Source of the DNA: Methanolobus sp. WCC4
GTDB taxonomy: Archaea; Halobacteriota; Methanosarcinia; Methanosarcinales; Methanosarcinaceae
Reading direction: 5' to 3'
DNA length: 64,000 bases
Assembly (NCBI RefSeq): GCF_038022665.1
Contig: NZ_CP150629.1
Location: 1,408,480-1,472,479 of the forward strand
The translations under genes were made by a program, and so were the position numbers. The notes beneath the pieces are model-generated. The model searched no databases. It was given only the letters and a program-made list of their open reading frames with translations, and was not told where the DNA came from. This document shows, in pieces, positions 2,556 through 3,665 of the stretch; the first letter of the stretch is position 1, and every line of letters starts with the position of its first letter.

Positions 2556-2663
2556 TTATATGCTGACAAGTCCTGCCATTGAAACGATTGCAAGGACCAT
2601 CATCATATAGAGGAATATGATAATACCTACTTTTTTCGTGCTTATTATGGCTTTGTTGTTCAT
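2556..2663 (-). CDS. 35-residue single-pass membrane protein
   Basis: Short reading frame starting MNNKAIISTKKVGIIIF and ending SMAGLVSI. It has a basic N-terminus (K4, K10, K11) and one uninterrupted hydrophobic segment from about residue 12 to 35, with a run of three methionines in the middle, so it should insert as a single N-in helix. A GGAG ribosome-binding site sits 6 bases before the ATG at 2663, and a TATA-like element (TTATATACTTTT, minus strand, around 2695-2704) lies at the expected distance upstream. These three features together argue for a real gene despite its length. I recognise no family. It is divergent from the candidate ncRNA and cytochrome gene. Confidence 0.6.
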   Translation of the reverse strand: MNNKAIISTKKVGIIIFLYMMMVLAIVSMAGLVSI

Positions 2664-2800: not shown

Positions 2801-2810
2801 AGTTTATATC
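2801..2810 (+). promoter_or_regulatory. TATA box for the candidate ncRNA
   Basis: AGTTTATATC preceded by a purine-rich BRE-like AAAAA. The predicted start site about 25 bases downstream (around 2830-2835) falls just before the folded region that begins at 2842. Confidence 0.5.
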
Positions 2811-2841
2811 TATTTAGCTCAATCCAAGACTTGAATCAGTA

Positions 2842-2964
2842 GTGGGGGTGGTCTCACCGAGGCAGGACGGCTCTTTAAGGCCGTTGCTTCGAAGGCCGTC
2901 CTGCCCATCCTGCTTGAACACATAGGATGTGAGACACTTGGGCTTAGCAACAATACACCCCCAC
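2842..2964 (+). ncRNA. Candidate structured ncRNA, three-way-junction fold
   Basis: No open frame, but nested perfect pairing: P1 GTGGGGGTG (2842-2850) with CACCCCCAC (2956-2964); P2 GTCTCAC (2851-2857) with GTGAGAC (2929-2935); P3 GGCAGGACGGC (2861-2871) with GCCGTCCTGCC (2895-2905), extended by CTT/AAG; P4 ATCC (2907-2910) with GGAT (2925-2928). P1 and P2 are contiguous on the 5' side and separated by a 20-nt single-stranded stretch on the 3' side. A TATA box lies upstream and a pyrimidine/U-rich tract (2971-2994) downstream, so it could be a free-standing RNA of about 130 nt; it could instead be a leader of the cytochrome gene 75 bases further on. It does not match tRNA, 5S, SRP or RNase P RNA as I know them. 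Confidence 0.6.
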
Positions 2965-3038
2965 AAATGACCTTTTCTATTGTCTCTTTTACCAAAGGAT
3001 CATATACTTCCTGTGACCAACTTCTTATGGGGTCTTAA

Positions 3039-3665
3039 ATGGAGAAAGTTGAACGCTATTTCTTTGCATTATTAGGATTGGTGATCGTGCTCCTTCTTGT
3101 ATTGGTTATAAGCATGGTGAATGACCAGCGTACAAGCTACACATACATGCCGGGATATGAATCCGGGGGCATGATGGGTGCCGGTTATTATGGACAGGGT
3201 GGCATGATGGGTTCAGGATATTATACTGACGATGGTATGATGAGAGGGGACTATGTATATCCTTACGGGGTTGACCTGAAAACAGATTTCGATTCCAATG
3301 GGGAGGCCATCTACTATACCGGTTACAATGAAAGCGGATCAAGGATCAGCTTCACATATGGGCCTAACTGGCTCTATGTTCATGGTGGAAGCTGTGTCAA
3401 CTGTCATGGCGTTGACGGAAAGGGTGGCGTCCCGATAATGATGTCCTATGTCATACCGCCGGACATCACTTATGATTCCCTTACATCTGAAGAGCATGAG
3501 ATGGAAGATGGTGAGGAACATGAGGTGTTCACGGAAGAGGATATAATGATCGCAATAAGGGATGGTGTTGAGCCATCAGGTGAGGAACTCGATCTGGCGA
3601 TGCCTCGCTGGCAGATGTCTGATGAGGACCTGAATGATATTCTGGCATACCTGAAAGAACTATGA
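3039..3665 (+). CDS. Membrane-anchored monoheme cytochrome c
   Basis: Protein of 208 residues. An uncleaved N-terminal TM helix (about 8-27) anchors it, with the rest outside the cell. Residues 36-77 are a low-complexity Met/Gly/Tyr segment with GGMMGAGYY, GGMMGSGYY and DGMMRGDY repeats. The C-terminal part (about 105-208) is a class I cytochrome c: CVNCH at 119-123 binds heme, and Met188 in LAMPRW is a good candidate axial ligand, followed by the helix LNDILAYLKEL. Between them is an acid/histidine-rich loop (EEHEMEDGEEHE, 151-162). Role: extracytoplasmic single-electron transfer; partner unknown. Methionine-rich repeats suggest copper contact, which is inference. It is followed by the rubrerythrin gene 154 bases away, probably a separate transcript. 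Confidence 0.85.
   Translation: MEKVERYFFALLGLVIVLLLVLVISMVNDQRTSYTYMPGYESGGMMGAGYYGQGGMMGSGYYTDDGMMRGDYVYPYGVDLKTDFDSNGEAIYYTGYNESGSRISFTYGPNWLYVHGGSCVNCHGVDGKGGVPIMMSYVIPPDITYDSLTSEEHEMEDGEEHEVFTEEDIMIAIRDGVEPSGEELDLAMPRWQMSDEDLNDILAYLKEL

Follow-up and report, generated by a model that had tools for sequence, protein, structure and literature searches.

A structured RNA of Methanolobus with a covarying three-way junction and no matching Rfam family

In Methanosarcina mazei, sRNA154, sRNA162, and sRNA41 are intergenic trans-acting small RNAs that pair with mRNAs (PMC5867862). The structure of sRNA154 is described as stable and conserved in the genus, with functional loops (PMC5867862). Within Methanolobus, a study of Methanolobus psychrophilus R15 reports 195 intergenic sRNAs detected by dRNA-seq, with mapped start sites and BRE/TATA promoters (PMC5378194). 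Structured-RNA motifs of archaea, including Pyrobac-1 and crcB, have also been obtained by comparative genomics, and Pyrobac-1 is listed as occurring in one genus and as lacking a cis-regulatory role (PMC2864571).

We analyzed a stretch of 64,000 nucleotides from Methanolobus sp. WCC4, called the window hereafter, and found a structured RNA of 137 nt at positions 2835–2971 of the plus strand. Like the three M. mazei sRNAs, it is a small intergenic RNA gene in the same archaeal family. However, sRNA154 has two loops and serves nitrogen control, whereas the Methanolobus RNA folds into one nested three-way junction; the two are set apart by their descriptions. The R15 sRNAs come from the same genus, and no such structure is described in the main text of PMC5378194. 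The RNA resembles Pyrobac-1 in being a structured archaeal RNA found through comparative genomics, confined essentially to a single genus and probably not cis-regulatory. It is set apart from Pyrobac-1, crcB, and other such motifs by the searches against Rfam 15. With the gathering score, all 4,227 Rfam models gave only tRNA, twice, in the whole window; at E ≤ 1, no match was found around the locus. At five loci with homologues, Rfam matches were limited to tRNA and SRP RNA. These searches bear out the sequence-only reading, which had recognized no known archaeal RNA class here and had proposed a comparison with Rfam. Plasmid and viral collections contained no match.

Other small structured archaeal RNAs were also considered, namely the H/ACA and C/D guide RNAs. 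The pocket of an H/ACA RNA lies between two stacked stems, whereas the unpaired stretch of the present RNA is one-sided. The ACA-like letters at its 3′ foot are paired and not conserved, as CACAAA is replaced by CAUAAA, CACUCC, CGCUAA, or CUCAAA in relatives (alignment A5), and the H/ACA assignment was rejected. Neither box C/D nor a k-turn was seen by eye in the RNA. A Y RNA of a Ro RNP was rejected as well, since TROVE (Ro60) is encoded in 0/27 genomes of the genus.

The minimum free energy of 2835–2971 is −65.0 kcal/mol, compared with −41.1 ± 3.7 kcal/mol in dinucleotide shuffles (z = −6.47; 0/200 as good); for the wider interval 2801–2994 taken by the sequence-only reading, z is −4.06. That reading had drawn a fold of 123 nt at 2842–2964 with helices P1–P4 around a three-way junction, and every one of these helices was recovered in place. 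The fold is extended slightly by P0, a closing helix with the nearly invariant arms 2836–2838 and 2968–2970. Since the conserved AUC...GAU pairs both ends, the conserved unit, which begins with AUCAG and ends with AUGAC, is taken as 2835–2971. P0 is so conserved that no covariation is visible in it outside G086, the one genome from another genus described below. P1 consists of 9 bp between 2842–2850 (GUGGGGGUG) and 2956–2964 (CACCCCCAC). In the 12-copy alignment, 99.1% of its cells are paired, with two pairs changed on both sides and four invariant. P2 has 7 bp between GUCUCAC at 2851–2857 and GUGAGAC at 2929–2935, and four of its six modelled pairs have changed on both sides. In G086, P2 is largely replaced, from UCUCAC/GUGAGA to ACCGACG/CGUCGGU. 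P3 is the long hairpin of the junction (2861–2905), with 11 perfect bp between 2861–2871 and 2895–2905 plus an upper part, and 10/13 of its pairs have changed on both sides. Its proximal GGCAG/CUGCC is conserved, and its distal part and loop are variable.

The unpaired stretches should be noted, since they are the candidates for contact with a partner. P4 (2907–2928) is a hairpin with a stem of 6 bp (2907–2912 with 2923–2928), paired in 100% of cells. Its loop GCUUGAACACAU is unpaired, yet its mean identity across the family is 85%, with the consensus GCUUGAAYAMAU. The unpaired 3′ strand between P2 and P1, termed J, spans the 20 nt at 2936–2955, exactly as the sequence-only reading had delimited it. 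The 3′ part of J is UAGCAACAAU in the window and mostly UAACAGCAUA in other copies (consensus AACARCAUW; 81% mean identity), whereas the 5′ part has 53%. A pseudoknot or a tertiary pairing of the P4 loop with J was considered, and has no clear covariation support.

The fold is conserved by covariation, and the RNA is on the plus strand. The 12 intact copies align with a mean pairwise identity of 67% (range 51–94%). Standard pairs fill 95.2% of the paired cells, compared with 86.3% in shuffled alignments and 43–47% with slid partners. Both-side changes occur in 18/35 pairs, compared with 8.7 ± 1.7 in shuffles and 0–9 in slid controls, so the covariation test proposed beforehand was passed. The covariation score is 0.372, against 0.189 for shuffled and 0.05–0.11 for slid alignments (maximum 0.107). 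RNAalifold, to which no structure was supplied, returned the same P1–P4 with 17/33 compensatory pairs, though the alignment had been built to fit the model and is biased in favor of the modelled structure. The strand follows from the excess of G-U cells (39) over A-C cells (7). No conserved reading frame was found among the copies; a small ORF inside the RNA varies in start and length.

A DNA search of 60 relatives provided seven alignable copies, including the window's own, for a first covariance model (R1), and a search with this model over 112 genomes of the family gave 12 intact copies and one decayed copy. A second model (R2), built from the 12 intact copies, was run on the genus with lax filters and on 238 genomes of the class. 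Intact copies, scoring 99–135 bits with R2, are present in 11 of the 27 Methanolobus genomes (the window's own counted) and in one genome of another genus of the family (G086). A twelfth Methanolobus genome, G015, has a decayed syntenic copy, and 15/27 genomes of the genus gave no match. Beyond Methanolobus and G086, R2 found no further match in the 238 genomes of the class, and neither model found anything convincing in the family's genera other than Methanolobus and that of G086. Each genome has one true copy, and extra matches are either its own reverse strand or weak chance matches. The weak matches L045–L048 were rejected as chance, because they overlap predicted coding sequence and lack the core motif. 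The RNA is a real, new, lineage-restricted structured family.

In G015 (locus L044, 7001–7137), the decayed copy is syntenic, lying before the cytochrome c gene, and its P1 is destroyed. This copy is evidence of loss of the RNA. The family is dispensable, as 15/27 genomes of the genus gave no match and the copy of G015 has decayed. In G086 (locus L025, 940–1254, minus strand), the RNA gene lies approximately 250 nt from the SRP RNA gene in divergent orientation, and a tRNA gene adjoins the SRP RNA gene.

The RNA has promoter and terminator-like signals of its own. The sequence-only reading had noticed a TATA box before the fold and a U-rich tract after it, and both are located here. The TATA box TTTATAT, conserved in position, is at 2803–2809 (plus strand), preceded by the A-rich BRE-like stretch ATCAAAAAG. 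Of the 12 intact copies, 11 have a TATA-like hexamer that starts 29–32 nt before the conserved 5′ end; in G086, as in the decayed copy, the hexamer is at −25. In shuffled upstream sequences, it appears in 1.4/13 on average (maximum 7). The U-rich tract CUUUUCUAUUGUCUCUUUUACC at 2972–2993 (plus strand) is a likely termination region. Runs of 3–5 T shortly follow the unit in 12/12 intact copies, with 13.8 T per 30 nt compared with a background of 11.1. The locus therefore has the features by which archaeal itsRNAs are recognized, namely its own promoter, a terminator-like end, no conserved ORF, and a conserved fold.

The best explanation, to which we give a probability of roughly 70%, is a free-standing single-copy gene for a structured noncoding RNA of approximately 140–150 nt, most likely acting in trans. 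We infer that transcription starts near AUCAG (approximately 2832–2838) and ends in the U-rich tract. Both ends pair in P0 and P1 and close the three-way junction of P2, P3, and P4. P1, P2, P3, and the P4 stem would then serve as a scaffold that keeps two stretches, the P4 loop and J in its 3′ part, single-stranded as contact surfaces towards a partner in trans. Judging from conservation, these two stretches are the likeliest working parts. The sequence-only reading had singled out the whole 20-nt strand for this role; the conservation figures agree for its 3′ half, not for its 5′ half, and the P4 loop, which it had not singled out, is as conserved. Trans action is likely by analogy with the intergenic sRNAs of Methanosarcina, and the RNA would act on mRNAs of other genes. 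Since those sRNAs pair with mRNAs (PMC5867862), base pairing is our first guess for the mode, held tentatively; a protein or RNP partner comes closely after it, and some other mode is less likely. J, the P4 loop, and the 3′ end were scanned for duplexes with 4,342 start regions from approximately 86% of the genome; none was stronger than the duplexes of shuffled queries, and we therefore claim no target. The dispensability of the family also weighs against this explanation.

The positions at which the helices are conserved bear on the nature of the partner. Identity is 95% in P1 and 94% in proximal P3, compared with 60% in distal P3 and its tip, which vary freely. By these values, P1 and proximal P3 are constrained in sequence beyond what pairing requires. 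Such constancy is seen more typically where a protein or ligand is recognized than in an RNA that acts purely as antisense. It would fit an RNA that binds a protein, whether as scaffold for a small RNP or as a decoy that titrates an RNA-binding protein; the binding site would be the junction, P1, and the P4 loop. However, no protein partner or co-occurring gene was identified, TROVE/Ro was not found in the genus, and the RNA has no repeated short binding motif, unlike CsrB-type decoys. Protein binding as the whole explanation is thus unlikely.

The relation of the RNA to the genes behind it should also be noted, since the sequence-only reading had left open whether the RNA is free-standing or a leader, and its place before a c-type cytochrome had also allowed a riboswitch-like reading. 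Such a leader would sense a ligand and control the downstream gene. Between the RNA and the cytochrome c ATG are 67 nt, and in six other loci a gene for an 88-aa membrane protein follows the RNA at a similar distance. A three-way junction with conserved loops is aptamer-like. However, for both downstream genes a TATA box of their own stands between the RNA and the ATG, like that of orthologues lacking the RNA. In the window, the cytochrome c gene has its short leader and a promoter of its own (GGATCATATAC) at 2996–3038 (plus strand), outside the RNA. Its TATA-to-ATG spacing recurs before orthologues in genomes that lack the RNA or have it elsewhere, together with a similar G-rich leader. The RNA thus has no fixed 5′ UTR position before a coherent set of genes. 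The cytochrome c gene was matched in 19/27 and the 88-aa gene in 10/27 genomes of the genus, and many genomes with the cytochrome c gene lack the RNA. Of the genomes with both the RNA and the cytochrome c gene, most have the latter at another place in the genome or on a different contig (G005, G025, G010, G012, G019), and in G019 the RNA, the cytochrome c gene, and the 88-aa gene are on three different contigs. Four more genomes with the RNA gave no cytochrome match (G001, G007, G020, G021). Neither gene lies directly behind the RNA in L035, L039, L041, and L043. In G015, the cytochrome c gene and its promoter outlast the decayed RNA, and a sensitive search with filters off found no remnant of the RNA near the cytochrome c or 88-aa genes of genomes that lack it. 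A leader is accordingly improbable, and the free-standing half of the former alternative is retained. Considering the covariation, the RNA's own promoter and U-tract, its independence of any one downstream gene, and the lack of an Rfam match, the RNA is very probably encoded by an independent gene.

One feature within this independent RNA could point to the ribosome. Its nearly invariant 5′ strand GGGGGUGGUCU (2844–2854) and the 3′ tail of 16S rRNA (GGAUCACCUCC) can form 11 contiguous pairs, of which three are G-U. This pairing is kept in 10/12 intact copies, in one through U for C, and is lost in the decayed copy; sites of this type are rare, about eight in the 86% of the genome examined. Refolding might then expose a Shine-Dalgarno mimic that competes with mRNAs for initiating ribosomes. 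However, GGGGGUGGUCU lies hidden within P1/P2, the copies share a common ancestry, and the idea arose post hoc, so we treat this improbable action as only a lead. If true, it would make the RNA an undescribed kind of archaeal riboregulator, since we know of no archaeal RNA that acts by exposing such a mimic.

The surroundings of the free-standing gene fall into two arrangements upstream, one with aminotransferase and mechanosensitive-channel-like genes, as in the window, and the other with thioredoxin-reductase-like, glutaredoxin-like, and AIM24 genes. Recurrent genes downstream encode a small membrane protein, a rubrerythrin, a Cache/cupin protein, and a large PAS histidine kinase; for the aminotransferase, reductase, glutaredoxin, and kinase, the name is our own reading of the sequence. 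The RNA thus stands beside redox and sensory genes, though synteny within one genus is weak evidence of function. The cytochrome c gene of the window (3039–3665, plus strand), identified by a match to Pfam Cytochrom_C, encodes a c-type cytochrome that is anchored in the membrane and has a single haem; a Met/Gly/Tyr-rich repeat (GGMMGxGYY) precedes its haem domain. A divergent ORF for a 35-aa peptide with a single membrane span (MNNKAIISTKKVGIIIFLYMMMVLAIVSMAGLVSI; 2556–2663, minus strand) is conserved across Methanolobus. Directly upstream of the TATA box of the peptide gene, L033, L036, L037, L038, and L042 have a conserved, partly palindromic stretch (approximately TAGATATTTTATA), which lies in the region common to the RNA promoter and is possibly an operator.

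The peptide ORF raises the alternative of a type I toxin-antitoxin pair like tisB/istR, in which the RNA would be the antitoxin of a small hydrophobic toxin. It lies 149–196 nt upstream of the RNA in 8/12 loci and beside the decayed copy, in both types of neighborhood. The complementarity between the RNA and the peptide mRNA, however, did not exceed that with shuffled mRNA in 7/8 loci and had no common position, and the sole better value, in L037, had no counterpart in the close relative L033. The peptide also persists in G015, where the RNA is decayed, and in G023, where no RNA was found; beside the RNA of L035, L039, L041, and L043, no peptide was found. Such a pair is very improbable. A repeated or mobile, MITE-like element can be dismissed almost entirely: the outer arms form an imperfect inverted repeat, through which the reverse strand also scores weakly, whereas there is one copy per genome in stable synteny, the G-U pairs are strand-asymmetric, the internal helices covary, and viral contigs and plasmids contain no match.

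The independent RNA gene would make a new Rfam family. To our knowledge, few lineage-specific archaeal structured RNAs have covariation support this strong, and we know of few archaeal intergenic RNAs whose mechanism is established. The RNA is present in the cultured strains M. vulcani PL 12/M, M. bombayensis DSM 7082, and M. profundi Mob M. Since it is compact, single-copy, and clearly bounded, and since presence, absence, and decay all occur within one genus, its expression, partner, and phenotype are directly testable.
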